From Bacteroidales bacterium (GTDB lineage: Bacteria; Bacteroidota; Bacteroidia; Bacteroidales; UBA10428): 46,849 nt of DNA. Location: positions 1-46,849 of the forward strand of contig JAFGSZ010000122.1 of NCBI GenBank assembly GCA_016934395.1, read 5' to 3'. A program made the translations under genes and the position numbers. This document shows positions 7,748 to 41,700 of this stretch, piece after piece. Under the pieces are notes generated by a model. The model worked only from the letters and a program-made list of their open reading frames with translations. It made no database searches and was not told the origin of the DNA. Position 1 is the stretch's first letter, and each line of letters opens with the position of its first letter.

Positions 7748-7822
7748 CGGGGTATAGCGCAGTCCGGTTAGCGTATCTGCTTTGGGAGCAGAGGGTCGCA
7801 GGTTCGAATCCTGCTACCCCGA
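7748..7822 (+). tRNA. tRNA-Pro(TGG)
   Basis: A 75-nt cloverleaf with acceptor CGGGGTA/TACCCCG and discriminator A. The anticodon stem TCTGC/GCAGA encloses TTTGGGA, giving TGG, which reads CCA proline codons. The T arm is CGCAGGTTCGAATCCTGC. CCA is not fully encoded. Confidence 0.95.
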
Positions 7823-23339: not shown

Positions 23340-24788
23340 CTAATCGTTTATGCAATTTTCAGAAACCTTTTTATTTGCTATGAAATTGCCATTTATAAAC
23401 ACATTATCCAAATTCAGGTTACGAACCCCCGACACAAAATTATCATCAGAAGATCCGTCAAACTTCGAATTATCAATATAGATATTATACACACAATCCT
23501 CATTTTCTATACCCTGCAGGTATAAGGGATATTTGCTTTTTTTACTCTTTATATTACTGATATGGACATTACGAATTACAGGTAAAAATTTATCGGATTC
23601 CACATTCTCCGAATCATACAGGCAATTTATTTTTACAACGGCTTCTTTAACTTCGCCAACTTTTATATTTCTAACAAATATATTTTCTACTATCCCTCCT
23701 CTTTCAGTATTGGTTTTAATTCGAATGGCCCGGTCAAGTTCTGGGCTGTTCATGGTGCAATTTTCGACAAATACATTTTTACACCCGCCTGATATTTCAC
23801 TGCCTATCACTACGCCACCATGCCCGTTGCGCATTTCACAATTTCTTACAATAATATTTTCACTGGGTACATTCCAACGTCTGCCGTCTTCATCTCTTCC
23901 TGATTTGATAGCGATACAGTCATCTCCTGTATTAAAAAAACATTCTTCGATTAACACATTTTTACACGACTCGGGATCACATCCATCGTTATTAGGACCT
24001 GTGCTGTTTGCGGTAACTCTGCGAACAATTATATTCTCAGACAGCAGCGGATGGATAATCCAAAACGGTGCATTCTCTATGGTAATATCTTCTATCAGGA
24101 TATTCTCACAACTATTAAATTGTATAAATGGCGGACGTAAAAAATTACCCTCTCCAAACTGACGCTGATCAACAGGAGTTTCATTCTTATTATACCATAT
24201 TAATTTTGGACGATCTTCAGGATTCGACTGACTTTCCATGCCTTTCTCCCAGCCATATTCTTTTCTTCCCTTCCATATCCACCAGTTCTCTTCATTTGCC
24301 TGGCCATCGAGTTTCCCTTTTCCGGTGATCGCTATATTTTTTTGCTTGTAGGCATATATCAGGGGTGAATAGTTATAACAATCCACGCCCTCCCAACGGG
24401 AAAGCACTAATGGCAGGTAATCATTCGGATCGGTTGAAAATTTTAAGATTGCCCCTTCTTCCAGGTGAAGGTTTACATTACTTAACATATGCAATGCTCC
24501 GGTAAGATACACACCTTTTGGCACCAGCACAGTTCCACCACCTTTTTTGCTGCATTTTTCAATGGCATTTTTCAGGGCCATTGTACAATCTGTTTTGCCG
24601 TCTGCAATAGCACCAAATTTTGTAATGTTATATACTTTGTCTTTAAATACAGGCGCCACTATCTGCTGTAAAATAGCGTCCATCTGACCCCAACCCGGCT
24701 CTGAAGTTTGACCAATTGCCGTTTGCACTGAAACTGACAAAAATATTACCAGCCATAAACTATTTAAAAGGCTATTATTTTTTTTCAT
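23340..24788 (-). CDS. GH28 polygalacturonase family enzyme
   Basis: A 482-residue exported enzyme: signal 1-26 (ending AIGQ), then a pectate-type right-handed beta-helix. All GH28 landmarks are present: NNDGCD with Asp268, GDDCIA with Asp289 and Asp290 as acid/base residues, NGHGG with His323, and RIKTN for substrate binding. It hydrolyses alpha-1,4 galacturonosyl bonds. The open layout and the exo-type genes around suggest an exo-acting or rhamnogalacturonan-directed enzyme, which the sequence alone cannot decide. It is third in the operon with GH105 and DUF4861. Confidence 0.95.
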   Translation of the reverse strand: MKKNNSLLNSLWLVIFLSVSVQTAIGQTSEPGWGQMDAILQQIVAPVFKDKVYNITKFGAIADGKTDCTMALKNAIEKCSKKGGGTVLVPKGVYLTGALHMLSNVNLHLEEGAILKFSTDPNDYLPLVLSRWEGVDCYNYSPLIYAYKQKNIAITGKGKLDGQANEENWWIWKGRKEYGWEKGMESQSNPEDRPKLIWYNKNETPVDQRQFGEGNFLRPPFIQFNSCENILIEDITIENAPFWIIHPLLSENIIVRRVTANSTGPNNDGCDPESCKNVLIEECFFNTGDDCIAIKSGRDEDGRRWNVPSENIIVRNCEMRNGHGGVVIGSEISGGCKNVFVENCTMNSPELDRAIRIKTNTERGGIVENIFVRNIKVGEVKEAVVKINCLYDSENVESDKFLPVIRNVHISNIKSKKSKYPLYLQGIENEDCVYNIYIDNSKFDGSSDDNFVSGVRNLNLDNVFINGNFIANKKVSENCIND

Positions 24789-24826
24789 CGTTATATCTCT
24801 TCAAATTAATAATCAATACTATTTAT

Positions 24827-26086
24827 CTATCTGTTATTACCAGTTTTTATCTGATTTTGTATTTTAACAAACACAGGTTGTGTAAGCAGGGCGCAGTATT
24901 CTTCCAGGTAATCAATAAATTCAGTTTTTGATTTGATCGCGTCCGGTTCCAGTTCCCATGCCGCGAGGAAATAATACCCCAACCTGTTGTTTTCAGGAGA
25001 CAACACAACAACATAACTATATTCGTCTTCAGATACCTGGATCAAACGATCCACGGGAAAGAGCACGGCAAGACCTAACAGGTCACCATTAAGACTTTGT
25101 TTTCCCCATGTGGCCAGGTAGTTCCAACCTGCATTTTTTTCACCAATGATAACTTCTGCGTTGGGATCTTTTCCTATTCCGGTGCAAAGATTATCTATCT
25201 GTCCCTTTATCTTCAGCCGGTGATATGTAGCTCTTGAACCTGCTTTTATTGATAAATACGATTCAAGGGTAAGCTTATTGTTTCCTGCTTCCCAACCATA
25301 ATAATCTGTTTTAACCTCTGAAAATAAGTCGGTATTTGCCTTAATCCTGCACATCACACTGTCGGTAACTGCCACACGTTGTGCATTTTTCCCATCCCAG
25401 TATGCCACAGTACCAATACCAAGTGATGAACCTACTTTAAGAACATCCATACCCCATTCGGACATGTTATGATAAGATTCATATCCATCCTGCCCTACTT
25501 CAGGAAGTACCATGTGTGGTGTTTTTTTCCCGAATACATCAATTGCATTACGCCAGTCGAGATATAAACGATATCCAACTTTATCGGATTCCCACCCTGG
25601 ACCTTCATATTTTATATAAAAAGAATGATCCGTGCACTCTTCAGGCACTCTTAAAGAATCAACAGGCTGAAATGCGCCGCCACCAACATATTTGTGATCC
25701 ACAAATTCCCCCCCGGTTTTATGCCATAGTTCAGCCAGTGTGCGTTTGGAGCAGGAACCGGAATCGTCCCTTTTTTCGAATTTTAACTCAATACTTGTCT
25801 CCGATAAAGCAGGCAAACTGACATTTAAAAATAACCGGCCGCCTGAATCAGACCAATCGGGTTTCTGGTGCTCTACACAAATTTCTTCTGATCCGATAAA
25901 AGCGGCCAGTTGTGTGTTTTGAAATTTTTCAGCCGGAATATTCAAACTATCATCACTAATTTCAAGAACTATATCTTTTAATTCAAACGGATGAGGGTTT
26001 GTTACCACAATTTTTACATCTTCTGAAAATTTTCCACGCTGACAGGAAACAGTAATTATCAGAAGGATCAGGTAATATTTTTTCAT
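24827..26086 (-). CDS. DUF4861 family lipoprotein
   Basis: A 419-residue lipoprotein from the ATG at 26086; Cys15 follows ITVS. An upstream ATG at 26128 adds 14 residues and spoils the signal, so it is not preferred. The DUF4861 family occurs in pectin and rhamnogalacturonan loci of Bacteroidota. Recognisable are the opening ISDDSLNIPAEKFQNTQLAA and the WESDKVGYRLYLDWRNAIDV block. A role in uronate-containing oligosaccharide hydrolysis is often suspected from context, but I cannot assign a reaction. It lies between GH105 and GH28. Confidence 0.85.
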   Translation of the reverse strand: MKKYYLILLIITVSCQRGKFSEDVKIVVTNPHPFELKDIVLEISDDSLNIPAEKFQNTQLAAFIGSEEICVEHQKPDWSDSGGRLFLNVSLPALSETSIELKFEKRDDSGSCSKRTLAELWHKTGGEFVDHKYVGGGAFQPVDSLRVPEECTDHSFYIKYEGPGWESDKVGYRLYLDWRNAIDVFGKKTPHMVLPEVGQDGYESYHNMSEWGMDVLKVGSSLGIGTVAYWDGKNAQRVAVTDSVMCRIKANTDLFSEVKTDYYGWEAGNNKLTLESYLSIKAGSRATYHRLKIKGQIDNLCTGIGKDPNAEVIIGEKNAGWNYLATWGKQSLNGDLLGLAVLFPVDRLIQVSEDEYSYVVVLSPENNRLGYYFLAAWELEPDAIKSKTEFIDYLEEYCALLTQPVFVKIQNQIKTGNNR

Positions 26087-26136
26087 AATATTTAAAATTT
26101 GGCCGTATACAAATTCCAGGTATTTCATCTATTCTA

Positions 26137-27327
26137 TTATCTTTTTAATTCAATGGCTGCCAGAATGAACGGGGCAACACCTTTCGGATCATTGTCTACC
26201 TGTTTTTCCGTAATATAGTATTCATAGCTGCCATCCCTGTAAGGATTTCCTCCCAGGCCGCAACCTCCGCATACATGAGTCATTGTCAGTAGTCCATCAG
26301 GTTCTTTAACAATAAATTCCTTGAGTATGGCATCAAATGAATCGGAAGCAATGTTGTTGAATTTTGCCGGCAGATACCCGTTTTTTGCCCCTTTGGCAAA
26401 AACATAGGTAAACATATTTGAACATGAAGCTTCAAGATAATTCCCTTCTCTGCCTCCATAATCAAGCACCTGATACCAAAGTCCGGTTTCCTTATCCCTT
26501 ACTTTAAGCAGCGCTTCGGAAACATTGTTTAATATTTTGATGATTTCTTCACGTTGCGGATGTTTTTCAGGTAAATAGTCGAGCACATCAACCAGCGCCA
26601 TGGTATACCATCCCATGGCCCGGCCCCAGAAATGTTTCGATCTGCCGGTAAGGGAATCGCACCAGGCCTGAGTACGGCTTTCATCCCAGGCATGATACAT
26701 TAATCCCGTTTTTTCATCTACCGTTTTTTCATATATGTGGGTAATCTGAAAAATCGCCTCATCAAACCATTCGGGTGCATTAAATTCCTGCGCATACTGC
26801 ACCATAAAAGGTGAAGCCATATAAATACCATCCAGCCACATTTGCCACGGATACCGTTTTTTATGCCAAAATCCGCCAGAATGTGTTGTTGGTTGATTTT
26901 CCAACTGAAAAATAAAATGCTGAATGGCCAGATTATATTTCTCTTCTCCTGTTCTTTTGTATAAAGTAATTAAATTTTTAGCCGGATTAATATAATCCAG
27001 GTTGTACTCTTCCAGATTATATTTTTTTACAGTACCATCAGGTTCAATAAAATAATCTACATAGGTTTTCAGGTATTCTGAATATTTATCGTTTAAAAAT
27101 CCAAGCTTATCAACAGCCTGTCCAAGCATGGCTACATCATACTGCCATTTTATTGTCCCTGAAGATTGTGTGAAATTTACCAGGCTGTCATATCGCGTCA
27201 TCACCGAATTTGCCATTTTTTGGGCAAAGGGCATGTTCATATCAGATTCCTTCGAAGATTCTCCGGATGACTGGCATCCAATTTCAAAAAATAATAAAAT
27301 CAGGACTGGGATAAATAATCCTTTCAT
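26137..27327 (-). CDS. GH105 unsaturated uronyl hydrolase lipoprotein
   Basis: A 396-residue alpha/alpha-barrel enzyme of the YteR/YesR type that removes the 4,5-unsaturated galacturonate left at the end of lyase products. Signal 1-17 with Cys18 (EIGC). Catalytic Asp166 lies in DGIYMASPF; other family blocks are MYHAWDESRTQ, FWGRAMGWYTMALVDVL and CGGCGLGG. It heads the operon with DUF4861 and GH28 and is the only intact one of three GH105 copies in this window. A conserved promoter block ends 26 bp upstream of its ATG. Confidence 0.95.
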   Translation of the reverse strand: MKGLFIPVLILLFFEIGCQSSGESSKESDMNMPFAQKMANSVMTRYDSLVNFTQSSGTIKWQYDVAMLGQAVDKLGFLNDKYSEYLKTYVDYFIEPDGTVKKYNLEEYNLDYINPAKNLITLYKRTGEEKYNLAIQHFIFQLENQPTTHSGGFWHKKRYPWQMWLDGIYMASPFMVQYAQEFNAPEWFDEAIFQITHIYEKTVDEKTGLMYHAWDESRTQAWCDSLTGRSKHFWGRAMGWYTMALVDVLDYLPEKHPQREEIIKILNNVSEALLKVRDKETGLWYQVLDYGGREGNYLEASCSNMFTYVFAKGAKNGYLPAKFNNIASDSFDAILKEFIVKEPDGLLTMTHVCGGCGLGGNPYRDGSYEYYITEKQVDNDPKGVAPFILAAIELKR

Positions 27328-27353: not shown

Positions 27354-27420
27354 CAATTATACTAATCAATACATAAATCCAGGGTAGACATATTACCGGA
27401 AATCGGGGGATAAACTATCA
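27354..27420 (-). promoter_or_regulatory. Promoter block A of the PUL, before GH105
   Basis: In gene direction, 48 bp (27420-27373) with TATCCCCCG, then CGGTAATATGTCTACC and GGATTTAT, an 11-bp spacer and TATAATTG (27361-27354), one base from the TAnnTTTG -7 box. It aligns without gaps to blocks B (34569-34635) and C (38303-38369); 38 of the 48 motif positions are identical in all three. The likely activator is the hybrid regulator at 38747. The rest of 27328-27633 holds no gene. Confidence 0.65.
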
Positions 27421-27577
27421 ATGATGCAGCATATTCTTCAGTAATCCGAATATATTCAGCTGTGAAAAAACCTCCCCGGGTATTCGCTATACCAATCTTC
27501 CGGAATTTGCATTAAATGTACAATAATAAACCAGCCAGAATAATTGTTACGGTTATTTTGTAAACATTATTACCTTG

Positions 27578-27624
27578 TATAAAAGATGCAGGTACAACAA
27601 CAATTGTGCACCCACATCTTTATA
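27578..27624 (-). terminator. Long hairpin after the SusCD operon
   Basis: TATAAAGATG and CATCTTTTATA bracket further pairing (GCACAA with GTTGT). No T run follows on the minus strand, so it may be an RNA-stabilising or pausing structure and not a true terminator. Confidence 0.35.
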
Positions 27625-27633
27625 AAATTATTA

Positions 27634-29226
27634 TTATTCCCATCGAGGATCTCCGGCGCTTGCGCCTAAGGGGCTTAAAAATGAGAAATCTCCATTTACC
27701 GGATCTTTCCACAAAGCCGTTGAACTTCCGCCATAAGGTATTAGCAAACTTAAAATGGAATACCCTGCAGAATCATCAAAATCACTGGTAGCATAAGAAT
27801 TGTTTATGGAGAGTGTTCCATCAGTTCTAATTCCCTGAGTATACCCGGCTTGAGATTCCCCAAGAATACAATTATTAATTTGTATACCACTACCTGTAAA
27901 TACCGTACCATTATAATCCATAAAATACCTGCTACTGCCGTCATCATAGGCTAACCTGTTAAAGGTGCAATTTTCAACAACTATGCTTTCGCATGAAGGC
28001 CCGTTCTGATAATAAATCAGGCCTCTTCTGGTATTATAAACAGTAGTGTTGCTTATTTTAATATTATTGATAGTTGATTCGACCTTATTAGAGTGAATAA
28101 CACCATATGCAGATCCCCAGGCAAAATCATTTAAAACGCAATCATTAACTACTATATTTTGTATAGTCTGAATCGCTCCTGTACCTCTTAAACGTATTAA
28201 ATGACGATCAAAATTCTGAATTTCACAACTATTAAATTTAATCAAGCCAAGATTACATCCGTCATCCGGTTGTTGGTCGAAAACGCCTCTGATCCGGCCT
28301 TGTGCATCATCGTAATTAACATAACCGCTGATCGTTAAGTACTCAAATACTAATGAATCTGCGGTAGTTAAGCCGGCATCAATCGAAAACATATGATCTC
28401 CTGAAGTAGTATAAATTACCGGTTTACCATCAGCATTTAATCCTCTGATTTTTATACTTTGAGTAAGCATAATATCTCCGGCAAATCCATACGTTTCATT
28501 AGATGTTAACACAATTACATCACCGGCTGCAGCCGCTCCGATAGCAGCAGCCAGATCAGCTCCGGCAGCTAACAAAACAGTACCTTCTACGGTAAAATTC
28601 TGAGTACCCCTCACAGCGCTGGCATTCATCAGCCTGATTTCATAATCCGCGTTATCCAGTCCGGAAACAGTTTTCTCACCTGCAGCAAGTTCGGCCGCTG
28701 AAATAGCTTCCGAAGTCTCGCCCGAACCAGAAACAAATAAAAGACCGGTTACCGCTTTACCGGGTTTCCATTTTATATTTACCGTGCCTAATGCAGTCAT
28801 TTTAATTGAGTAACCTTCAAACAGGTTCTCAGGCAACGATCTGAAAGCTAAAGTTGTCCATTTTGAGTCTTCCACGCCCGAAGCGCTACTTATTGCTTTT
28901 ACCCGTGCAGAAAATTGAGCATCACCTGCCGGTAAATCATAAACATAAGGAAGATCATTTGCTGCAACAGTTGCTGTATGAATGATGTTAGCAAATAAAA
29001 GGTTATCATCACTAATTTCAAGTTCGTATGAATCAGCTCCGGCTGAAAGCTTCCAGTTTAATGTTACCGTTGTCTGATTGGTAATTTCAGCAGAAATATC
29101 AAGAGGAGTAAAGATCCTGTCAAACTCAAGATCTTCAACAACCGGGTCTATTTTTTCCGTACACGCCATTGCGAATAGCAAAAAAATAAAACCCAGTGTA
29201 AATGTTAAATATTTAGTATTTTTCAT
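27634..29226 (-). CDS. DUF4957/DUF5123-type beta-helix lipoprotein
   Basis: A 530-residue lipoprotein: Cys22 after LLFAMA. Residues about 40-135 look like a fibronectin type III domain (VTLNWKLSAGADSYELEI). A second small beta domain follows, then from about 220 a right-handed beta-helix with ladder repeats (LVFEYLTISG, LIKFNSCEIQNFDRHLIRLR, NIKISNTTVYNTRRGLIYYQ). Such proteins sit next to SusCD pairs in pectin loci, at the position of surface glycan-binding proteins. The beta-helix also resembles pectate lyases, so an enzymatic role remains possible. It starts 14 bp after the susD gene. Confidence 0.8.
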   Translation of the reverse strand: MKNTKYLTFTLGFIFLLFAMACTEKIDPVVEDLEFDRIFTPLDISAEITNQTTVTLNWKLSAGADSYELEISDDNLLFANIIHTATVAANDLPYVYDLPAGDAQFSARVKAISSASGVEDSKWTTLAFRSLPENLFEGYSIKMTALGTVNIKWKPGKAVTGLLFVSGSGETSEAISAAELAAGEKTVSGLDNADYEIRLMNASAVRGTQNFTVEGTVLLAAGADLAAAIGAAAAGDVIVLTSNETYGFAGDIMLTQSIKIRGLNADGKPVIYTTSGDHMFSIDAGLTTADSLVFEYLTISGYVNYDDAQGRIRGVFDQQPDDGCNLGLIKFNSCEIQNFDRHLIRLRGTGAIQTIQNIVVNDCVLNDFAWGSAYGVIHSNKVESTINNIKISNTTVYNTRRGLIYYQNGPSCESIVVENCTFNRLAYDDGSSRYFMDYNGTVFTGSGIQINNCILGESQAGYTQGIRTDGTLSINNSYATSDFDDSAGYSILSLLIPYGGSSTALWKDPVNGDFSFLSPLGASAGDPRWE

Positions 29227-29240
29227 AATTCATAAATTTT

Positions 29241-31037
29241 TTAGTAACCATAATCATTTGTTAACATACCATTGCTGTTGTCGATAAAATTTTGCCATAT
29301 TGGCCAGAATTGATAATCATCCGGATTATATGTATAAAGGGAGGCTATTTTCGGGTCATCAATTTGATCAGGTCCCACCCATTCCATAAAACTCGGATAT
29401 TCAGAAGACATATCTTCAGTTTCGCCTCTGTTAAGCCCGTAAATTTCCAATTTGGTTTGCAGTCCGTCTTCATCTGCCACATACCTGAAATACAAATTTG
29501 AGGGAACATCAGCATACTCACCGGTCTGATTGCGTAAGTTATCCATCTTAACTTTAGCCTCAGCCATTTTAGTTCCTAACAAATTCCAGCGGATAAGCGC
29601 CATTTTACGTTCCATTTCACCGGTAAACTCAAATCCATGTTCTTTAACAATGGCATCAAACATCAGCTCTTTTGTTGACAATGCATCAACATAAGCATCT
29701 ACTTTTGTTGACCAATCTGCCTGTGCAAATGCTCTTTTACGAATCTGCTTTAAATAGGGAGCTGCGGCGGCAGGCCCATTCAATTCATTTTCAATCTCGG
29801 CAGCCATTAATAATACTTCGGCATATCGCATGTACATTTTATTTAAGCCATCATCATTTGTAGAAGTAACCCGGCGGGTCATCCATTCATATCTCCATTT
29901 TCCGAAACACCAGTTATCTAATGATCTTAATTCCTGTTTTGCAATTCCATCTCCATCAACATCTCCATATTCATAAGGAACACATGTTACGTCCCTTCTC
30001 TGGTCTTTAACATCATAATCATAGTATACAAAAGGAAGCGGGCCATAGCTGCCTCCCTGGGGTTGCCCTGTATATTGATCTATGGCATTATGTTTTACTG
30101 CAAAATAGAATCCTACTCTTCCGCGGCCTGAGTTAAATGGTATTTCCCAAAGTGATTCACCACCGGCTGAAATATCTTCTTCATTCAATAACCTGAACAG
30201 TTCTTCGAACGAAGTTTCAAGTTGGGCCTTTCCACTTTCTTCAATGTCTTTACATTCCTGTAATGCAATTGGATATAAAACATCAACAGACAATTCAGGA
30301 TCGGTACTTCTTCTTATTCCCCCCTCAGGTCGTTGCGAATAGCCTGATGCAACCAGACAAAGTCTTGCCCGAAGGCCTTTAACAAAAGCTTTATTTATTC
30401 GCTCAGTTGTACTTGTTGCCTCAGTTTCATTTGGCCAGGCGACCAAAGTGGCTGCCTCTTCCAAATCGGCAATGAGTTGTTTGTAAATAACATCTCTGTC
30501 AGATTTTGCTAAATACAAACTTTCTGCTGAAATAGGCTCAAATCTTGCTACAATATCTCCCCATGCCCTTAATAAGTCGGCATAATAAATAGCCCTCAGG
30601 GTTAAGGCTTCACCCAGTAACTGTCCCATTTCATTTCCGGGGGCCGGTTCTCCGTATTTTCTAATGCCCACGATACATACATTTGCGCGTTCAATACCAG
30701 CGTAGAACATTGCCCATGCATTATTGGAAGAATTCATCCAGCTATTTGTAGCAGAGTTTTCATATTTTGCCAGCAAAACACTGGTACTTGTACCGTCTGA
30801 AGAATTATTCCATTCAAGATCCGAATTGGTACCATACTGAGGCAGGAACCTTCCCCTGTAAGAATTGGTTTGCCCCATGGGTTCTTTTATACCATCCACA
30901 GCCTGTCCTGTAAGTATTACATTTGAGAATATCAACGATTCATCAAATGTTGATTGCGAAGGTGCATCCAGAAAGTCCTCGCAGGAGGTTAAAAAACCTG
31001 CTAAAACCAGAATAGTTATATATAGTATTTTTTTCAT
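29241..31037 (-). CDS. SusD/RagB family glycan-binding lipoprotein
   Basis: A 598-residue surface lipoprotein: Cys19 (LTSC), then CEDFLDAPSQSTF, the standard SusD opening. TPR-like helices are seen in the N-terminal half (LLGEALTLRAIYYADLLRAW) and the RagB C-terminal region from about 340 (MYMRYAEVLLMAAEIENEL, RKRAFAQADW). It forms the lid over the SusC channel and binds the oligosaccharide to be imported. It is 35 bp after susC and 14 bp before the beta-helix lipoprotein gene. Confidence 0.96.
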   Translation of the reverse strand: MKKILYITILVLAGFLTSCEDFLDAPSQSTFDESLIFSNVILTGQAVDGIKEPMGQTNSYRGRFLPQYGTNSDLEWNNSSDGTSTSVLLAKYENSATNSWMNSSNNAWAMFYAGIERANVCIVGIRKYGEPAPGNEMGQLLGEALTLRAIYYADLLRAWGDIVARFEPISAESLYLAKSDRDVIYKQLIADLEEAATLVAWPNETEATSTTERINKAFVKGLRARLCLVASGYSQRPEGGIRRSTDPELSVDVLYPIALQECKDIEESGKAQLETSFEELFRLLNEEDISAGGESLWEIPFNSGRGRVGFYFAVKHNAIDQYTGQPQGGSYGPLPFVYYDYDVKDQRRDVTCVPYEYGDVDGDGIAKQELRSLDNWCFGKWRYEWMTRRVTSTNDDGLNKMYMRYAEVLLMAAEIENELNGPAAAAPYLKQIRKRAFAQADWSTKVDAYVDALSTKELMFDAIVKEHGFEFTGEMERKMALIRWNLLGTKMAEAKVKMDNLRNQTGEYADVPSNLYFRYVADEDGLQTKLEIYGLNRGETEDMSSEYPSFMEWVGPDQIDDPKIASLYTYNPDDYQFWPIWQNFIDNSNGMLTNDYGY

Positions 31038-31072
31038 AGTGTATTTAATTAAATTTTAAAAATTAAACCGGG

Positions 31073-34000
31073 TTAAAAAGAAAGATTTAAACCAAAAATT
31101 AACTGCCGGCTTTTCGGATAACCTGAATGATCGGTTCCAGGAGTCAGAGGTGTTGCCGTTCTTGTAGAAACTTCAGGATCGAAACCCGAATAATTTGTTA
31201 ATATAAATACATTATACGCTGACATATAGAATCTTATCCTCTGAATATTTACTCTTTCGGTTATATTGGCCGGAATTGTATATCCCAGGGTTAATGTATT
31301 TAAACGAAGGAATGAACCATCTTCAACTGCCCAGTCGGTAAATACATGATTTTGCATATATGGCGACCACATGGTAGTGTTGGCATTCATAGCTTCCAAT
31401 TCAGCCGGATCATTCACAATAGTTCCATCTGCACCTAAATTGGTCCATCTTTTACCATCTGCCATAATATCAATCATATTCGTAAACTGGTTCCTGCCGG
31501 TTGTATATTCAATCTTATTGGCATTATAAACATCATTTCCATAACTCCAGTTAAATACGGCAGATAAATCGAATCCGTAAAAACGGGCATCGATATTAAA
31601 ACCTCCTGTACTGAGTGGATTATTATTGCCTATAATGGTAAGATCTTCAGTTGTTACCAATCCATCGCCGTCAATATCTATCAATTTTAATGTGCCGGGG
31701 CGAACAGCGCCGGTTATTCCGGAATTATCAGAAACCCCCGGGTTCAAAATCCATGTATCGGTAGCGTCATCGTAGCCTGAGAAATCGGAAACTTCGTACC
31801 TTCCATCATTTAAATAGCCATAAAACCGGCCAACAGCACCGTTAACAGCTACCCAGTAATCGTTTCCAATCTGCGAAGAAGCCCATCTGGTCTCCTGACC
31901 AAAGTCTTCCATTAAACCTAATGAAACAATTTTGTTCCTGTTAAAGCCTACATTAAATCCTAAATTAAGTCCGTATTTTGCTTTATTTACAGCTACCCAG
32001 TTTAAAGCAAGTTCCACACCTTTATTTTCTGTTTCTCCCATATTTCGGTACTGATAGTTATATCCTGTACCGGAAACGGGGAACCTTATTAAACCATCTT
32101 TGGTGGTATTGTAATAGAGTTCAATTGTACCGTTAAGGGCGCTTCTGAATAATCCAAAATCAAGTCCCATATTTCGGGTATAGGTTGTTTCCCACTTAAG
32201 ATCAGGATTTGACATATATTCTCCACCGGCAGACCAGTACGTACTAACATTATTGATATAAGTTGTTGAACTTGATGAAAATACCTGGTCTATCTGGCCG
32301 GTTGGTATACGATTATTCCCTGCAGTACCATAGCTCAATCGAAGTTTAAGGCTATTTAAAACATCTGATAAACTCTCCATAAAACTTTCTTCTGATATTC
32401 TCCATGCCACGGCTGCTGACGGGAAATAACCCCAGCGGTTACCCCTGGCAAATTTACTTGAACCATCAGCCCTGAATGTTGCAGAAACCAGGTATTTATT
32501 TTTGAAATCATAATTTGCCCTTCCAAAAAATGATATTAATTTATCATCCGGGGCAAATTTATTTTCATAAACTCTTGAAAATCCCTGATCAACCAGTTTA
32601 TAAGCCTGGTCGGCAGTAAAAAATGAAGGAAATCCTTCAACATCATTTTCAATTGTATTTGATTTAGCCAGATTTATTTCCTGTCCGACTAAAACATTTA
32701 AAGAATGATCCTCGCCTAAAATTTCTGCAAAATCATATTGTAGAATATTTGTATTCCTCAGAACCGGTCTGTTTTGTACAACTGATATTAAAGCCGGTAA
32801 ACCCTGACTATCGGTTGTAACATTATTCTTTACATAATAGGTGGTTTCACCAAAAAATTTATCATCAGTGTTTAAGTAATAATCCAAACCAGCCAGAGTT
32901 TTAAATTCTAATCCCTTTATAATTTTCCATGAAAAACTTCCGTTCATGTTATAATTGGTTCTATGCTGCTGACGATCGTTATCAGCAACAGCTCTTAACG
33001 GATTTATCATATTTGAGGAAAATTCTTCATCGGCAAATTCCCCAAGTGTATTAAAGGGAATAGGAGCATAAAGCATGGTTTGCTTAACCCTTGGGTCGGT
33101 ATAGTTGCTGCCCTTATCAACAGATCCGGCGCCTCCTATTTTGGTATCTGAATAACGCAAAGAAAAAGAAAGTTCCACTTTTTCATTTGGGTTATTATCA
33201 AGTTTAAATGAAAGGTTATTCCGGCTATAACTGGAATTCAACATAATTTCATCACTATAAATCCCGGAATAATTTAAGGAGTATTTTATTTTCTCCGATC
33301 CTCCGTTTATAGTTAAATCATTATTAAAAACTGTTCCAATATTTCCGAAAACCTGATCGTACCAGTTGGTGCCTGGTTGTCCGTCATATAAATCAATATC
33401 CTGGTATTGACCAAAATATTTTTCGTAGTTTTCCAGGTTGTCATTTAACAATGCATATTCATATTGCCATTTCACATAGTCTTCAACACTTAGAGAATTA
33501 AGACTGTTTGCTACTTTTTTAAAGCCATAATAAGCGTTATACTTTACTTCTACCTTCCCTTCAGCACCACCTTTGGTTGTAATAATAATTACCCCATTGG
33601 CTCCACGTGCACCATAAATGGCAGTAGAAGAAGCATCTTTTAAAACATCAATAGATTGAATTATTGATGCCGGAACATCGGAGATACTATTAACAGGAAA
33701 ACCATCTACAATATACAATGGTGAGTTGTCTTGTGTAATAGATCCCCCGCCTCGCACACGGATATTGATTTCCGCATCGGGTGAACCTTCGGTGACCACA
33801 ACGTTTACACCAGCCAGTTTACCTGCCATCGCTTCAGCAACAGATGAAACAGGAATTTCAGCCAAAGCATCACCTTTCACAGAAGCAACAGCGCCTGTTA
33901 GGTCTCTTTTCCTCACGGTACCGTATCCTATTACGACTACCTCATCCAGTTCCAGAATGTCTTCAACCAGAGATACATTAATACTGGTTTGGGTACCTAC

Positions 34001-34285
34001 AGTAATTTCTTCAGTCAGAAAGCCTATAGCTGATATTACGAGAATATCACTTGGGCCTGCCATAAGTGAAAAATTACCATCCAGATCTGTTACAGTACCA
34101 GAGGTAGTATTCTTAATTAGAATATTAACACCTGGTATTGGGCTATTATCTGTAGCCGATGTTACTTTACCTGTAACTCTGCCCTCTTGACCAAGGACAT
34201 TGAAAAGACCAATACTCACAATAAAAGCAAACAATAATAATCGCTTCCATTGAGAAATCATCTTAGTTTTTAGATTTTGAATCAT
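31073..34285 (-). CDS. SusC/RagA TonB-dependent outer-membrane transporter
   Basis: A 1070-residue channel. Signal 1-33, a carboxypeptidase-D-like domain (about 35-110, VTGKVTSATDNSPIPGVNIL), a TonB-box region DEVVVIGYGTV, the plug (about 118-230, ending PLYIVDGFPV and GVIIITTKGG) and a barrel ending in Phe (FGLNLSF). It imports oligosaccharides, here probably pectin fragments judging from its neighbours. No FecR-type or N-terminal signalling domain is present, so control is likely by the hybrid regulator and not by an anti-sigma factor. Promoter block B lies about 284 bp upstream. Confidence 0.97.
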   Translation of the reverse strand: MIQNLKTKMISQWKRLLLFAFIVSIGLFNVLGQEGRVTGKVTSATDNSPIPGVNILIKNTTSGTVTDLDGNFSLMAGPSDILVISAIGFLTEEITVGTQTSINVSLVEDILELDEVVVIGYGTVRKRDLTGAVASVKGDALAEIPVSSVAEAMAGKLAGVNVVVTEGSPDAEINIRVRGGGSITQDNSPLYIVDGFPVNSISDVPASIIQSIDVLKDASSTAIYGARGANGVIIITTKGGAEGKVEVKYNAYYGFKKVANSLNSLSVEDYVKWQYEYALLNDNLENYEKYFGQYQDIDLYDGQPGTNWYDQVFGNIGTVFNNDLTINGGSEKIKYSLNYSGIYSDEIMLNSSYSRNNLSFKLDNNPNEKVELSFSLRYSDTKIGGAGSVDKGSNYTDPRVKQTMLYAPIPFNTLGEFADEEFSSNMINPLRAVADNDRQQHRTNYNMNGSFSWKIIKGLEFKTLAGLDYYLNTDDKFFGETTYYVKNNVTTDSQGLPALISVVQNRPVLRNTNILQYDFAEILGEDHSLNVLVGQEINLAKSNTIENDVEGFPSFFTADQAYKLVDQGFSRVYENKFAPDDKLISFFGRANYDFKNKYLVSATFRADGSSKFARGNRWGYFPSAAVAWRISEESFMESLSDVLNSLKLRLSYGTAGNNRIPTGQIDQVFSSSSTTYINNVSTYWSAGGEYMSNPDLKWETTYTRNMGLDFGLFRSALNGTIELYYNTTKDGLIRFPVSGTGYNYQYRNMGETENKGVELALNWVAVNKAKYGLNLGFNVGFNRNKIVSLGLMEDFGQETRWASSQIGNDYWVAVNGAVGRFYGYLNDGRYEVSDFSGYDDATDTWILNPGVSDNSGITGAVRPGTLKLIDIDGDGLVTTEDLTIIGNNNPLSTGGFNIDARFYGFDLSAVFNWSYGNDVYNANKIEYTTGRNQFTNMIDIMADGKRWTNLGADGTIVNDPAELEAMNANTTMWSPYMQNHVFTDWAVEDGSFLRLNTLTLGYTIPANITERVNIQRIRFYMSAYNVFILTNYSGFDPEVSTRTATPLTPGTDHSGYPKSRQLIFGLNLSF

Positions 34286-34454
34286 AATTCTAATAATTTA
34301 GTTAGGTTAAACAGATTTCTACATTTGTATAGGTAATATTTTAAATATAATTGTTAGCATCCTGAAAGTTTAGTTTATTCCTGATTTCCCGATAATCAGA
34401 CAGGCCGTCTTTATTTGTTGTAAATGAATCACCATGTTGAAATATTATATTATG

Positions 34455-34546
34455 GATTTCGCGGATTTTTTCAATAATTCTCCGGCTAAAAGACCCGCCA
34501 GGGAAGTAATCCTTAGAATTAAGGCAGCACTTAAAATACTTTTCAT
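34455..34546 (-). pseudogene. Relic of a GH105 5' end ahead of susC
   Basis: From ATG 34546 the minus strand reads ATGAAAAGTATTTTAAGTGC, matching the pseudogene at 37609-38280 (AAAAAGTTTTTAAGTGCTGC) and continuing with GGAGAAT...AAAAAATCCG against GGGGAAT...AAAAGAATCTG, the region that encodes SSGECSKES. The homologous frame stops after about 33 codons. Beyond that only weak similarity remains. A 76-residue frame over 34341-34571 is in another phase and not real. It now forms part of the untranslated region between promoter block B and susC. Confidence 0.65.
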
Positions 34547-34568
34547 AATTGGCCATTTTATTCCCGAT

Positions 34569-34635
34569 CAATTATAGTAATCCATAGATAAAACTATGGT
34601 AGACATTTTACCGGAAAAAGGGGGGTATATTATCA
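34569..34635 (-). promoter_or_regulatory. Promoter block B of the PUL, before susC
   Basis: Same layout as block A: 48-bp motif (34635-34588) with TACCCCCC and CGGTAAAATGTCTACC, 11-bp spacer, then TATAATTG (34576-34569). The first downstream ATG is the GH105 relic at 34546; susC starts at 34285, which gives a leader of roughly 275 nt. Confidence 0.6.
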
Positions 34636-35045
34636 CACCCATCAGCTTAAATGCTTTTCACCAAAGCTTTCGACAGCAGATAATATTTCCTGCAATTTTT
34701 TAATGTCAAGAAAATGATATAAATCGTGAAAATTTAAAAAGAACAGATAAGGTAAGTCTTTTTAGGTATTTTTTGGGAAATAATTTCTACACCGGACTAG
34801 TTATAATCCCCGGCAGAGTGTATTATAAACAATATTAAAAATATAAATATTCATTATACATTTTAGTCTAACCAGCAGATTATTATTATAAATATAATAA
34901 GGATTTTGGTATTTATATACTTCCAACTGATCTTAAAATAATAAATTTTAATTCACCGGCTAATTAATTATTTTAAAATATTGTAATCTTAAGCACATTA
35001 CAATTAGTTTCGTTAACAATAAAATAAAAAGATTTTTATACGTTA
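34636..35045. other. Diverged copy of the regulator's upstream region
   Basis: No gene. Two parts match 38370-38748: 34650-34700 (ATGCTTTTCACCAAAGC, GACAGCAGAT) and 34988-35047 (GCACATTACA, AATAAAAAGATTTTTA). The second part ends where the regulator ATG would be, but the base here is ATT, and no regulator gene follows. It is the residue of a duplication of the region between GH105 and the hybrid regulator. Confidence 0.55.
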
Positions 35046-35061
35046 ATTTTTTTAACTGTTA

Positions 35062-35116
35062 AAAAAATCCCCTGACCTGAATGTCTTGCAATTTAATTCA
35101 GGCAGGAGATTTTTTA
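35062..35116 (-). terminator. Intrinsic terminator of the T9SS repeat-protein gene
   Basis: A stem of about 20 bp with one mismatch and a bulge: AAAAAATC..CCTG.CCTGAAT against ATTCAGGCAGGAGATTTTTT. It has A and T flanks on both sides so could act in both directions. It lies 72 bp after the stop at 35188. Confidence 0.75.
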
Positions 35117-35187
35117 TTATCTGTAATGAGAATTGAGAAAACGGGGAATATTTCTAAAATTCCCGGCAGATAATCTCATGTATTTAA

Positions 35188-37542
35188 CTATTGTTTTACA
35201 AATTTTCGGATTACCGAATTTTCACCATCTTTCACTTCAATAAAGTAAATTCCAGATTGTAAACCATGAGTATTAATAGTGAATATTTTTCCTTCAGGTA
35301 TAAATTCTGATATTTTTTCACCTGTAATGGAATAGAGCTTAATCCCGGAGACTTTATTCCTTAAAGTAAGCTTGAGATAATCTCCCGCAGGATTTGGGTA
35401 CATACTGAAGAATTCCTCCTTATTATTAGATATTGCGGTAGCAATTGTAATGTTTACCGTATAATCCCTGGTTGTGGTTCCGTCTTCAGCAGTTACTGTA
35501 ATAACTGCAGTGCCCGGGATTACAGTAATTTCTCCGTCTCCGGAAACTGTTGCATTATCGTCGTTTGGAGTTGCTGTTAGGGTAACACTGGTAGTACCGT
35601 CCGGTAATTCAAGATCGTATGTAACTGTTTCCGGATTAAAGACAGGATCCAATGTACCAACGGTGGTTACCAGACCGGAAAGTGCAGCGTCTGTTGAAGC
35701 TGGAGCCACTGTGATATTTACTGTGTAATCCAATGTTTCGTCATTATCTGCAGTTACTGTAATAACTACAGTTCCCGGGACGGTACTAATTTCTCCGTCT
35801 CCGGATGCTGTGGCATTGGCATCGTTTGGAGTTGCTGTGAGGGTAACACTGGTAGTCCCATATGGTACTTCAAGATCGTATGTAACTGTTTCCGGAGCAA
35901 AAACAGGATCTAAAGTACCAACACTCGCGGTTAACTCCGAAAGAGTGGCATCTGATGAGAGGCCAACTGTAATAATATTTACAGTATAATCCCGGGTTGC
36001 ACCATTTTCTGCAGTTACTGTAATAATTGCAGCGCCCGGGATGCTAACAATTTCTCCATCTCCGCTTAATGTTGCAACCGGATCATAATTGGCAACCGCC
36101 GATAGTGTTACACTGGCCGTTCCTGCAGGCACAACAAGATCGTAACTTAATGTATCCGGGTTAAATACAGGATCGAGCGCGCCTACATCGCTTGCTAAGC
36201 TATAAAGCGAAGCGTCGGATGAAAAAGGATCCGTTTCAGGCATTCCAATCACACCCGGAGCAAATATACCTGAGGTTGTCCATGCTACCCAGTCAACAAA
36301 ACCTCCAATTTCGTAACTGCCATTGCCATCGCCAAAACGGAAATAATTCTCTGAAGAAGTTGTTGCTGTAACGACTTCAGCCACTGCTACCGGATTTTCG
36401 TCAAGATAAAAGGCTAACTGATCAACAGTTTTTGTAATACGATAAGTATGCCAATCCAGAATGTTTATACCATCCGGGAGATCACCTTTTAAACCTGCCT
36501 GTTTTAATTCAAATGTGGAATCAATATTTATATACAATCTTTCCCTGAAACCTCCCTGCTGAAAATCAAATTCCATAGGCCGGTCAACAGTATCAGACAC
36601 TGCTTTTACCCTGGCTACCATCGTAATATCAGGAGTAGGGTCTACAGGAAAGTTGTGTTTCCACATAAAATTAGAAGCTGCAGGAGAACTTATCAATTCA
36701 AGTAATGAATTTCCAGTTTGATCAGGATCATCAATAATCCTGTTGGTATAAGTATCCCCGGCTGTATTACTTGGTTCAAATTCCGGGTTATTGCGGTCTG
36801 GTAATACATCGCCGTCGTAAACATGCCACTCAACTAATTCAGTACCGGCCAGACCAGTTAAAGCAACAGGTAGCGGTCCTGTTACCGGTGTATAAGCACC
36901 CGTACTGTCCAATACTATCCAGTCAACATATCCGCCGATAGCATCACCGGAACCATCTCCAAACCTAAAAGATTGTTCTGTTGATGAGGTAGTTGAGGTC
37001 CCTGTTGAAAACGGAGTGGGATCTTCATCTACGAATATTGTTGCGCTGTCGCCAATTACCTGGATACGGTAAATATGCCATTCATTCACATCAAAATCAA
37101 CATCAACGGATACACCCGCTTTTTCAAGCTTAATTCTTCCCTCATTATAAATGCGCAATTCATCCCTTGTTTCTGCATTTCCATTGTCCCAGCGTATATC
37201 CATCACACGGTCATATGCGGGATCGCCGCTGCCCTTTAACCTTGCTACAATTGTAAAGGTTGAATCAGTATATGCCGCATCAAAAACATGTCTGAACGTA
37301 AGTTTGCCATCCGGATGAAAATATTTTAAAACTTTATTGCCGGGAATATTAGCATCTAAAATAATTTCCCGGATCATTCCGGCGCCAAGAGAAATATCCT
37401 TCTCACTAGTAACATCAAGCGTGTCTCCTCCTCCATCAGTTTCAGAAGGTAAAACACTGCCATCGTAAATCAGCCAGTTCTGAGCTGAACTAATAAGACT
37501 AAAAGTTAGCATTAAAGCTATTAACAGGTAGATTTTCTTCAT
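35188..37542 (-). CDS. T9SS-exported protein with two LamG-like and three cadherin-like repeats
   Basis: A 784-residue secreted protein. Signal 1-20 (ending SSAQ). Two similar LamG-like sandwiches at about 24-215 and 240-425 (both with YRI.V/KT, FRFGDG.G and GGYVDWI/GGFVDWV). Three beta-sandwich repeats of about 87 residues follow at 434-700 (SSDAxLxxL...GxLDPVFxPxTxxYDL), the cadherin-like PF12733 type. A Por-type sorting domain ends it (about 712-784, YPNPAGDYLKL, GIYFIEVKDG). It should be cut and attached to the surface, perhaps binding pectin. There is no obvious enzyme domain. It follows a GH105 pseudogene. Confidence 0.8.
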   Translation of the reverse strand: MKKIYLLIALMLTFSLISSAQNWLIYDGSVLPSETDGGGDTLDVTSEKDISLGAGMIREIILDANIPGNKVLKYFHPDGKLTFRHVFDAAYTDSTFTIVARLKGSGDPAYDRVMDIRWDNGNAETRDELRIYNEGRIKLEKAGVSVDVDFDVNEWHIYRIQVIGDSATIFVDEDPTPFSTGTSTTSSTEQSFRFGDGSGDAIGGYVDWIVLDSTGAYTPVTGPLPVALTGLAGTELVEWHVYDGDVLPDRNNPEFEPSNTAGDTYTNRIIDDPDQTGNSLLELISSPAASNFMWKHNFPVDPTPDITMVARVKAVSDTVDRPMEFDFQQGGFRERLYINIDSTFELKQAGLKGDLPDGINILDWHTYRITKTVDQLAFYLDENPVAVAEVVTATTSSENYFRFGDGNGSYEIGGFVDWVAWTTSGIFAPGVIGMPETDPFSSDASLYSLASDVGALDPVFNPDTLSYDLVVPAGTASVTLSAVANYDPVATLSGDGEIVSIPGAAIITVTAENGATRDYTVNIITVGLSSDATLSELTASVGTLDPVFAPETVTYDLEVPYGTTSVTLTATPNDANATASGDGEISTVPGTVVITVTADNDETLDYTVNITVAPASTDAALSGLVTTVGTLDPVFNPETVTYDLELPDGTTSVTLTATPNDDNATVSGDGEITVIPGTAVITVTAEDGTTTRDYTVNITIATAISNNKEEFFSMYPNPAGDYLKLTLRNKVSGIKLYSITGEKISEFIPEGKIFTINTHGLQSGIYFIEVKDGENSVIRKFVKQ
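35430..36240 (-). repeat. Tandem ~261-bp coding repeats
   Basis: Three in-frame copies encode the cadherin-like domains. Copies two and three are very alike at DNA level (shared TCTCCGTCTCCGGA, GTTGCTGT.AGGGTAACACTGG), copy one is more diverged. This points to recent duplication of one unit and a chance of length variation. Confidence 0.8.
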
Positions 37543-37608
37543 AAATTTAATTTTTAAATTAGGTTTAAAATTTTAAGGATTTATTAAAAGGTCTGTAAGT
37601 TCATTATG

Positions 37609-38280
37609 TTACTTTTTTAGTTCTAAAGCTGCCATCACGGTGAGTTTTTCCACCAGGTCCGCAGCCTCCGCACATTCTGGTCAACACAAGTTTTCCATCT
37701 GCATCTTTCACGATAAACTCATTCAACATAGCACTAAAGTACCTTCCAGAAATTTTTTCAGACTTTACCGGCAAGTATCCTTTTCGGGAACCTTTTCAAA
37801 AACATACCTGAACAGGATGCTTCGAGATAGGTGCGCGTGTCTCTGCCAGGGTCCAAAACCTGATACCACAGCCCGGTTTCTTTATCCCGAACTCTGAGTA
37901 AGGCTGCCGATATGTTAGTAAATAATTCAATAATTCTGGCTCGTTAAGGATGATTTACAGGCAAATAATTAAGTACATCTAAAAATGCCATTGCATACCA
38001 ATCCATAGGTCAACCCCTGAACTTTTATGTAATCCCTGTTTTTGAATCGCAACAGCGCTGCGTTCTGCTTTCATCCCAAGCATGGCAATTTCTTACTGCC
38101 ATCTATTTTACCCGGAAGATCGTGTGAAATTAACCAGACTCTCATAATCCATCATTATCGAATTTGCCTTCTGGCGGTCTGATGTCATGGTTGTAACAGA
38201 TTCTTTTGAACATTCCCCTGACGATTGACGCGCTAAGGCTGTAATTAATAAAAAGAAAGCAGCACTTAAAAACTTTTTAT
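37609..38280 (-). pseudogene. GH105 pseudogene with catalytic region deleted
   Basis: Similar to the intact GH105 at both ends: SLVNFTRSSG near the 5' end (SLVNFTQSSG in the intact gene), then HAWDESRTQ, LTYGLVCNGIF-type remnants, and EAAD.../AALELKK at the 3' end against AAIELKR. About 500 bp between SSG and HAWDESR are missing, including the catalytic Asp. Stop codons and frame changes follow. The original start, aligned to ATA near 38278, is lost; the ATG at 38305 lies inside the promoter -7 box and cannot be the start. Confidence 0.85.
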
Positions 38281-38302
38281 TATAAGCCCTTTTATTCCAT
38301 TT

Positions 38303-38369
38303 CAATAATACTAATCCATGAATAAATCCATGGTAGACATTTTACCGAAAAAGGGGGGGTAAATTATCA
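38303..38369 (-). promoter_or_regulatory. Promoter block C of the PUL, before the pseudogene
   Basis: The 48-bp motif (38369-38322) has TACCCCCCC and CGGTAAAATGTCTACC, 11-bp spacer, then TATTATTG (38310-38303). It would transcribe the GH105 pseudogene and possibly the T9SS gene behind it (65-bp gap). Confidence 0.6.
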
Positions 38370-38746: not shown

Positions 38747-41700
38747 ATGAAGACAAGAATTGTATATCACAAAACTTTACTTTTCAGATGGCGCATATTT
38801 TTTATTCTAAGTTTTCTATTATGTGAATTCAGCCAGCTTAGAGCAATCGAGGTGGAACGCTTTGAAAAGCTCAATACCGAAGACGGATTATCCCAGAATT
38901 CAGTGGTGAGTATCTTTTGTGATCATAAAGGTTTTATGTGGCTGGGTACCTGGGACGGACTAAACCGTTACGATGGATATAATTTTAGAATTCTGAAGGC
39001 CCAGTCCGGTAAAAGCGATGTGCTAACCAATAACCGGATAATCAAAATCTGGGAAGACCAGCGAAATTTCCTGTGGGTAGATACGTATGACGGTTATACA
39101 CACTGGTTTAATCCCGAAACCGAAAAATTTAAAACCATTCCTTTTTTTTACCGGTCAGAAGAAGAAAAAAACAGTTCAATCACCTGCTTTCAGCAATTTA
39201 AGCAGGATGAAATATGGATAGGTTCGAGCAATTCGGGCCTGTATTATTTACAATACGACTCCTTAAGCCGTGACTATATTGTAAATCAATATTTAAGCCG
39301 GGGTATCAGCGCTTTAACAAATAATGAAGTTCGGTTTATTGTTCAGGATACGGATTTTAATATTTGGATCGGCACCCATAAAGGGTTAAATAAACTGGAA
39401 AACAAAAAGAAAAATATCGAGAATCAGCAGTTACAACATTATTATATTAACCTGGATTTTACGGTTGCTGCAGCTTCAAAGAAATCGATCTGGTTCGGGA
39501 CAAAAAGCCACGGAATAATTTTGTTTGATAATACAACAAATACCTTCAATCCCCTTCCGAAAGCATTTAAAACACTTAATAATAGCGAAATTACATTGTT
39601 ATATACAACAACATCCGGAAATATTGTAATTGGTACAGCACAGCAGGGATTATATATTTACAATACACTTACTAAAACACTTCGGCAATATATATTAACC
39701 GGAAACAGGATAAATACAGTATATGAAGATGCTTATGGGTTGCTCTGGATAACCACTGAAAAATTTGGTATAACCAAGCTTGACCCTGCAAATCAAAAAT
39801 CACACTATTTTATTTTAACTCCCAAAGAAATTGAACCCCTGGTGGATGAAGAACGTCAGTATATATTTGAAGATTCTCAAAAAAATTTATGGATTGGCCT
39901 TCATGGTGCCGGACTTGCCCATTATGTGAGAGAAAACGATAATTTCGAATTCTTCAGGAACGATCCGAATGACCCGTCGACTATAAGTTCAAATTTTGTC
40001 CATTGTATTACCGAAGACCAGTCGGGATTATTATGGGTAGGCACCGGTCAGGTAAACGGCGGGATAAATAAAATTATACCTGCCAATCCGTCTTTTAAAC
40101 AAATTATTCCGAAAAAAAATATAACCGATATGGCGGATAATGTTGTGCGGTGTATTTTTGAAGACGATAATGGTTACATCTGGATGGCTACCAAATCGGG
40201 TAGAATTTATATCTACGATAAAAATTTTAATCTGAAAACCACACTGCATAATCTCCCGCTTATAGACAGGAACCTTCCGGGATATAATATTTACTCCATT
40301 ACCCAGGATAGTAAAGGATATATCTGGCTCGGCTCAAAGGGGGGCGGAATAGCAGTAAGCACACTACCCTTATCTGATCTTAAAAAAAACTACAACTTAC
40401 TAAACTTCAGGCTTTACCAGCACCATCCCAAAATTTCCTCATCGCTGAGCAGTAATTACGTTTACTCCATAACTGAAGATCATGAAGGAAAAATATGGAT
40501 CGGAACCTATGGCGGAGGATTAAACCTTGTAGAACACCGTACAAATGATTCTATTTTCTGTAAACATTACAACCGGGCCAACAGTAACCTGACCAGTGAC
40601 GATATCCGGCATGTTTTTGAAGATTCCCGGCACAGGCTCTGGATTGCAACAGTTTTTGGATTAAACCTGCTGGATGAAGTATTCCCGGAAAACGACAGTA
40701 TTTCTTTCCGGTCTTTTAATTATAATCCGCTTGAAGATTCTACAATTAGCTATAATGACATCATTCATATTTTTGAAGATACCGACCAGAATATCTGGTT
40801 TGCTACATTTGGAGGCGGTGTTAACCGTCTGGCTTCCCTTACCCGGGATATTGCAAGATTTGAAAATTTTAATCATACACAGGGCCTGATTAACGATGCC
40901 GTATGCGGAATATTACAGGACGATAACGGGAACCTTTGGTTTAGCACTGAAAATGGAATTTCAATGCTGGACATAAAGAATCGAAAATTTGAAAATTATG
41001 ATAAAAATAACGGCTTATTATCGAGCAAGTTTTGTGAAAATACCTGCATTCATTATCACACAGGAGAATTAATTTTTGGAAGTACCCAGGGAACCCTGGT
41101 GGTTTATCCCGATAAAATTTCAAAGAAACAATATATCCCTCCCATAGTTTTATCAAATTTCCAGCTATTTAACCAGGATGTTGACATACATGATAAAGAC
41201 GCTCCTTTTCATAAAACCATAGAATATCTTGATAAAATTGTTTTAAAACATTCGCAGTCGAGTTTTACCATTGAATATGCTGCGCTAAGTTATTTTGATC
41301 CGAAAAAAACCCAGTATGCCTATATTCTTGAAAACTTTGAAAACCGCTGGAATGAAGTTTCTTCTTTACGCAGAGCCACATATACAAACCTCTCGCCGGG
41401 CAGGTATATTTTTAAAGTTAAAGCCGCCAACTGGGATGGAACATGGAATGAAAATCCGCGTGTGCTGCATATTACTATCCTTCCTCCCTGGTGGCGCACT
41501 ATATGGGCGTATATTATTTATAGTATATTGTTCCTTATTTTGGGTGAAATTACACGCCGTATTCTTACCAAGTACAATCATATGCGGAATGATCTCCGGG
41601 TAGAACGCCGGGTAAACGAAATTAAACTCCAGTTTTTCACCAATATATCACACGAAATACGTACACCGTTAACCCTGATCCTGGGGCCGCTGGAGGATAT

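Follow-up and report, generated by a model that had tools for sequence, protein, structure and literature searches.

A repeated operator and promoter block in a pectin cluster of a Bacteroidales bacterium, a probable target of the neighbouring hybrid two-component regulator

Results

Three similar blocks lie upstream of genes in a pectin cluster

The DNA analysed here, called the window, comprises positions 1-46,849 of contig JAFGSZ010000122.1 from a Bacteroidales bacterium (UBA10428; assembly GCA_016934395.1), whose genome measures 4.53 Mb. It carries a homogalacturonan-type pectin cluster with genes for UxaE, UxaC, a pectinesterase, GH28, DUF4861, GH105, DUF4957/DUF5123, SusD, SusC, a cadherin-like protein with a T9SS sorting tail and a hybrid two-component regulator (HTCS) (Table 1). 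Nineteen window proteins, not every open reading frame, were scanned with Pfam, and the HTCS showed the hybrid two-component architecture (Reg_prop, Y_Y_Y, HisKA, HATPase_c, Response_reg and HTH_18). The cadherin-like part of the T9SS-tail gene contains a tandem repeat (35489-36064; 261-bp unit, 2.2 copies).

Table 1. Features of the pectin cluster and its three blocks (window coordinates)
Feature	Coordinates	Strand	Remarks
GH28	23340-24788	-	block 1 unit, downstream of DUF4861 (unit 23340..26128)
DUF4861 protein	24827-26128	-	block 1 unit, downstream of GH105
Intact GH105 (Glyco_hydro_88 family)	26137..27327	-	
Block 1	27354..27420	-	half-site A 27405-27419, half-site B 27383-27397, -7 box 27354-27361 (TATAATTG); heads GH105-DUF4861-GH28
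Hairpin, possible terminator	27575..27625	-	-21 kcal/mol, z -3.73; after DUF4957 gene, before block 1
DUF4957/DUF5123 protein	27634-29226	-	block 2 unit
SusD	29241-31037	-	block 2 unit
SusC	31073-34285	-	block 2 unit (27634..34285)
Block 2	34569..34635	-	half-site A 34620-34634, half-site B 34598-34612, -7 box 34569-34576 (TATAATTG); heads GH105 5' remnant, then SusC-SusD-DUF4957
81-bp copy of 38659-38739	34960..35040	-	75% identical; original just upstream of HTCS gene
Terminator-like hairpin with U run	35062..35116	-	-23.9 kcal/mol, z -4.97; after T9SS-tail gene, before block 2
Exported cadherin-like protein, T9SS sorting tail	35188..37542	-	downstream of block 3
GH105 pseudogene	37625..38280 (approx.)	-	by tblastn and blastn
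Block 3	38303..38369	-	half-site A 38354-38368, half-site B 38332-38346, -7 box 38303-38310 (TATTATTG); heads GH105 pseudogene, then T9SS-tail gene; ancestral position, from gene order in relatives
HTCS, proposed binder of the blocks	38747..43198	+	by Pfam and ortholog/motif co-occurrence

The original prediction, made from the letters of the window, described three gapless 67-bp blocks consisting of a 48-bp motif, an 11-bp spacer and a shared -7 box. We confirmed all three on the minus strand, with 52 of the 67 aligned positions invariant (38/48 in the motif, 7/11 in the spacer and 7/8 in the box) and pairwise identities of 55/67, 56/67 and 58/67. A 36-base consensus matched the window three times and 100 shuffles not once. 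The 16-base core CGGTAAWATGTCTACC has three exact matches in the whole genome, none at one mismatch and three at two; at up to three mismatches there were 89 matches against 96 for a reversed-pattern control, so that matches beyond the three are at noise level. The block profile returned the three blocks from the genome with E values of 2.4e-21, 6.6e-21 and 2.7e-20, the next best match having 0.084. The window blocks are the only strong copies in the genome, and the many copies away from carbohydrate loci that would have told against the prediction are not seen; a plasmid search with block 1 as query gave no match.

The GH105 start codon, or the position equivalent to it (27327, 34546 and 38280), follows the -7 box by 22-26 bp; the arrangement is as predicted, but the distance had been given as 23-27 bp. 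Block 1 does head the GH105-DUF4861-GH28 unit. Block 2 heads the SusC operon, as proposed, with about 55 bp of a GH105 5' remnant in between. Block 3 had been placed directly before the T9SS gene, but a GH105 pseudogene intervenes, and some 760 bp separate the block from the start of the T9SS gene at 37542.

The motif is a probable tandem operator at a fixed distance from the -7 box

Thirteen sites from related genomes could be aligned without gaps over 75 columns, and this alignment reveals a half-site repeat that is hidden in the window alone. The 48-bp motif is a single tandem operator of two 15-bp half-sites (GAYAATTTRTCYMCC) in the same orientation, 22 bp apart; the two half-site profiles of the 13 sites correlated at 0.73 when offset by 22 bp, whereas no other offset between 12 and 29 exceeded 0.26. 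A C run and CGGTAAAATGTCTACC, first described as separate elements, are both present but form parts of this direct repeat, the C run being the end of half-site A and CGGTAAAATGTCTACC being half-site B plus one preceding base.

Several other readings of the motif were set aside. The inverted repeat GGTA-N7-TACC looks palindromic in the window and is lost in the relatives, whereas the 22-bp direct repeat is kept; a CCATGG..CCATGG dyad and an ATGGATT repeat in the 3' part of the window blocks are likewise absent from the relatives. As to an RNA element, Rfam found only two tRNAs in the window (genes at 6763-6851 and 7748-7822, plus strand).

Primary-sigma promoters of Bacteroidetes are described, in the part of PMC7366714 consulted, as having TAnnTTTG at -7 and TTTG around -33; a sigma-70-type promoter scan was set aside, since these promoters are outside its coverage. 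The window boxes are of the TAnnTTTG type (TATAATTG twice, TATTATTG once), and the distance from half-site B to the box is 20-21 bp (judged by eye in 25 sites). Across the 13 relatives' sites the match to the -7 box peaks at a single column (4.38 of 6; neighbouring column 3.46, others 1.2-2.9), and all 13 matches used to select these sites had ended before the box. TTTG near -33, expected at about columns 38-41 of the same sites, reached a mean of only 0.15-1.6 of 4 matches; the sole TTTG peak (3.23, column 31) is inside half-site B, too far upstream for a -33 element. Measured from the -7 box, the centre of half-site B is near -40, beside the missing -33 element, and because the half-site ends 20-21 bp before the box it reaches the -33 region.

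The motif accompanies one group of HTCS orthologs

We ran a sequence-only model of the three window blocks (R1) on 197 related genomes, the own genome being included as the sole member of its genus, and four of its ten best matches outside the own genome share a contig with an ortholog of the window HTCS. Orthologs were defined by at least 44% identity and found in 17 genomes (own included), with two candidates scored per genome at E<=1e-150. Applied to 25 stretches surrounding 16 of these orthologs, R1 gave 13 matches at E<=0.1 outside the window, which are the 13 sites aligned above. For the controls, 15 stretches surrounding 8 HTCSs with identities of 34-38%, there was no match at E<=1.

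A second model (R2) was built from relatives' sites only (13 training sites from 11 genomes), with the window blocks and the sites of genome G012 held out. R2 recovered the held-out window blocks with E values of 4e-10, 1.2e-9 and 1.2e-8. Scanning the 197 whole genomes under Infernal's stricter filters, R2 found 25 matches at E<=9e-6 (13 of them training sites, 12 outside the training set), spread over 13 genomes, every one of which belongs to the 17 with an HTCS ortholog; none occurred in the 180 genomes without one. The count of 13/17 is partly circular, since 13 of the 25 matches had themselves served to train R2, and the Fisher value of 3.3e-17 for 13/17 versus 0/180 overstates the case, because the training sites came from 11 of those genomes. 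Fairer tests are the comparison of ortholog and control loci with R1, the held-out window and G012 sites, and a leave-one-genome-out scan, in which the training sets for non-window loci contained two of the three window cores. In that scan the best score was at least 28 in 13 of the 17 loci; the remaining loci scored 18.5 (G010), 12.7 (G133), 11.0 (G051) and 2.3 (G014), and the 15 control stretches at most 14.5 except for one at 24.5.

GH105 homologs of 55-56% identity in three genomes that lack such an HTCS (G036, G157 and G095) had no R2 match, so the occurrence of the site parallels that of the regulator and not that of the enzyme. Operators of Bacteroides HTCSs are described, in the consulted portion of Ravcheev et al. 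(2013; PMC3878776), as direct repeats on one DNA face at an average distance of 21 bp, and response-regulator fragments of BT4124 and BT4663 bound promoters of polysaccharide utilisation loci (PULs) with predicted sites in the mobility-shift assays covered by the part of PMC11253607 consulted. The present motif is a direct repeat with a 22-bp period and is conserved before operons near orthologous HTCS genes in several genomes. On the strength of the ortholog co-occurrence, the published direct-repeat operators and the published fragment binding, we class the block as an HTCS operator with its promoter. The comparative data, namely co-occurrence and held-out recovery, thus lend support to the earlier suggestion that the motif is a candidate target of the AraC domain of the hybrid regulator, and the blocks are probably the target of the neighbouring HTCS.

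Co-occurrence is not binding, and where several pectin genes are inherited together the blocks might be the operator of another regulator, such as a stand-alone activator or a global carbohydrate regulator, that is co-inherited with the HTCS. A global regulator would, however, leave more sites than the three in the own genome; the sites track the HTCS ortholog and not GH105; the architecture published for HTCS operators is one of direct repeats about 21 bp apart (same part of PMC3878776); and no other regulator gene was among the 19 window proteins scanned near the cluster. We consider this alternative very unlikely. That three near-identical intergenic copies belong to a small mobile or repetitive element is improbable in the extreme: strong copies in the genome number just three and all lie within a single cluster in the same orientation, the core and its fixed spacing to the -7 box are preserved across genera, and among the 197 genomes no copies were found at E<=1e-5 outside those with an HTCS ortholog.

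The motif fades with regulator divergence

A strong site is absent from four of the 17 ortholog genomes (G010, G014, G133 and G051). G010 has a weak one (E=0.023) 45 bp before GH105, and the HTCS contig of G014 is 3.1 kb long and begins inside the gene. Among the control stretches, that of G154 contains a moderate match (L126:19596-19654, E 0.0065, score 24.5) just before an HTCS of 35% identity. Related regulators may share related sites, and the motif family could predate this group of orthologs. G154 also has a DUF4957 protein nearby. Intermediate R2 matches were found in two genomes without an ortholog, G178 (C32:88187-88220, E 3.1e-4) and G156 (C38:14286-14333, E 5.5e-4). Of 80 named loci only L166, which is probably G007, gave strong matches. 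Four of the six loci L167-L172 (35-45% sensor identity) gave none at E<=1 and the other two only E 0.036 and 0.57; L198 (31%) had one match at E 0.01, far from its HTCS. The motif fades as the regulator diverges.

Sites in relatives precede genes for GH105, GH28, SusC and other proteins

The 22 sites outside the window precede genes for GH105 (7), GH28 (4), SusC (2), probable exported proteins (6) and, one each, a GDSL lipase, an MFS transporter and a DUF6383 protein. All five of the six exported proteins that were scanned with Pfam have a T9SS tail. Six of the 22 sites do not share a contig with the HTCS. The motif is not restricted to the window locus and is a regulon motif in relatives with the same regulator. 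G007 has three sites, before GH105, GH28 and SusC, which show little similarity outside the core and are not necessarily recent copies.

Sites at distant loci were seen in a sister genus (G022 C148:18135 and C67:8583; G016 C58:10987 and C386:3956; G009 C37:9673). The pairs share even the spacer, with 51/61 and 56/69 positions identical within a genome, and their similarity possibly reflects another promoter copying, to a gene for a T9SS-tail protein.

The blocks were probably duplicated together with the GH105 5' end

The GH105 pseudogene has ATA at its start position and contains stops and frame changes. Compared with the protein of the intact window GH105, its three pieces are 43, 62 and 54% identical, and a stretch of about 430 bp is missing between the first and the second. 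A tree on 220 columns joins the pseudogene, on a very long branch, to that intact gene (bootstrap 87). Taken together with their GH105 starts, blocks 1 and 3 are identical at 219/282 positions, and the regions of blocks 2 and 3 at 148/193. Past block 2, about 55 bp are homologous to the 5' end of the pseudogene and are followed by unrelated sequence and then SusC. These identities and the remnant give comparative support to the proposal that the promoter was duplicated with the 5' end of its enzyme gene. The 81-bp copy at 34960..35040, in the same order, marks how far upstream the segment copied before SusC extends. A 33-codon open frame (MKSILSAALILRITSL..., 34445-34546, minus strand), a relic of the copied GH105 start, also lies between block 2 and SusC and could act as a leader peptide.

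Terminator-like hairpins precede blocks 1 and 2 (Table 1); a consensus terminator scan with a loop limit of 8 lists neither of them.

Two relatives, G013 and G019, whose HTCSs are 63-64% identical to that of the window, have one site, before GH105, followed by a homolog of the T9SS-tail gene (59-60% identical, at the same position) and SusC; in G019 the order continues with SusD, a DUF4957-type protein, GH28 and a pectate lyase. SusC is only 42-49% identical, so the comparison is one of gene order and not of close strains. No site was found between the T9SS-tail gene and SusC in either genome, where by eye a hairpin-like stretch is present; a site is therefore not required for SusC expression in every relative. 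Both relatives carry an extra exported-protein gene between the HTCS and the site (L094:4836-6968 in G013, L095:13730-15859 in G019), of which the window has none; that of G013 encodes a Pel9A-like beta-helix protein with a T9SS tail.

Homology extends into GH105 coding sequence beside all three blocks and one GH105 copy is a pseudogene, as would be seen if the blocks were alike only as recent duplicates of the GH105 upstream region, with one or two of them working and the rest relic DNA. Blocks 2 and 3, however, keep their half-sites and -7 box intact although the adjoining GH105 sequence has decayed, they still precede intact genes (SusC and the T9SS-tail gene), and relatives such as G007 have separate sites before GH105, GH28 and SusC. 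We regard the relic explanation as unlikely. From these sequence comparisons it is likely that a single cluster became three co-regulated units through promoter copying.

Discussion

We propose that the blocks all belong to one HTCS regulon, each serving as an activator-plus-promoter unit, and that they spread by copying from one ancestral GH105 site; we put the probability of this reading at about three in four. Repeat structure, spacing, regulator co-occurrence, gene order and the traces of duplication were all established by sequence. In the mechanism that we envisage, a homogalacturonan-type pectin oligosaccharide would be sensed and the HTCS would become phosphorylated. Its AraC-type domains would then sit, as a dimer, on both GAYAATTTRTCYMCC half-sites, on the same DNA face and two helical turns apart. 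The position of half-site B at the -33 region suggests class-II-like recruitment of RNA polymerase to a promoter without a -33 element of its own. Three units would thereby come under one signal: the GH105 relic with the T9SS-tail protein, SusC-SusD-DUF4957, and GH105-DUF4861-GH28. Against this reading counts that transcription would have to cross about 760 bp of dead gene to reach the T9SS gene.

In the ancestor a single copy would have stood before GH105, close to the HTCS. In this lineage the intergenic region between the HTCS and GH105 would have been copied, along with the 5' end of GH105, to a place before SusC, and the site with a whole GH105 would have been copied downstream, the first GH105 decaying once the copy existed. 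Each copy would restart transcription behind a terminator, and the simplest history would be that the ancestral site was copied twice within the cluster.

Systems of this kind are known. In the portion of PMC3878776 consulted, HTCS_Rgu-1 and HTCS_Rgu-2 of Bacteroides thetaiotaomicron (rhamnogalacturonan/pectin) likewise have direct repeats on one face, with sites before SusC/SusD and enzyme operons near the regulator and before a few remote operons. The same portion gives published HTCS operators as 12+9, 14+6 and 16+5 bp, whereas here the half-sites are 15 bp long with a 22-bp period. Unlike those of the HTCS_Rgu systems described there, which belong to different bacteria, the present half-sites have an apparently different sequence, a fixed distance to the -7 box and a promoter copied with part of a gene. 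The window HTCS shares its protein architecture with BT4124 and BT4663, and its receiver has the SHIP stretch described as conserved in the part of PMC11253607 consulted; the binding of promoter fragments in mobility-shift assays described there concerns these two proteins. A search for literature on promoter duplication in PULs gave as its only match a paper that, in the part consulted, concerns raffinose-family sugars. As far as the literature searched goes, subscription papers being mostly outside it, the operator family, the fixed -7 distance, the gene list and the well-marked promoter copying in a utilisation locus are new.

The analysis turns a visual repeat into a testable regulon for which a half-site of 15 bp is defined, a regulator is proposed, the promoter geometry is fixed and targets are listed in 13 genomes, which lie outside the well-studied gut Bacteroides. 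With relatives serving as before-pictures and a pseudogene as residue, it describes an HTCS pectin cluster that was probably split by promoter copying, a concrete route for the growth of a polysaccharide utilisation locus. More tentatively, and with rather less than even confidence, we suggest that PUL regulons can grow by copying a ready-made activator-plus-promoter cassette, with its half-site/half-site/-7 geometry fixed and together with part of the first gene, behind terminators inside the parental cluster. If so, one regulated cluster would become several separately tunable, co-induced units, leftover GH105 5' ends would be the fossil trace of the process, and the sister-genus pairs that share a spacer at distant loci would suggest the same route for recruiting remote genes.
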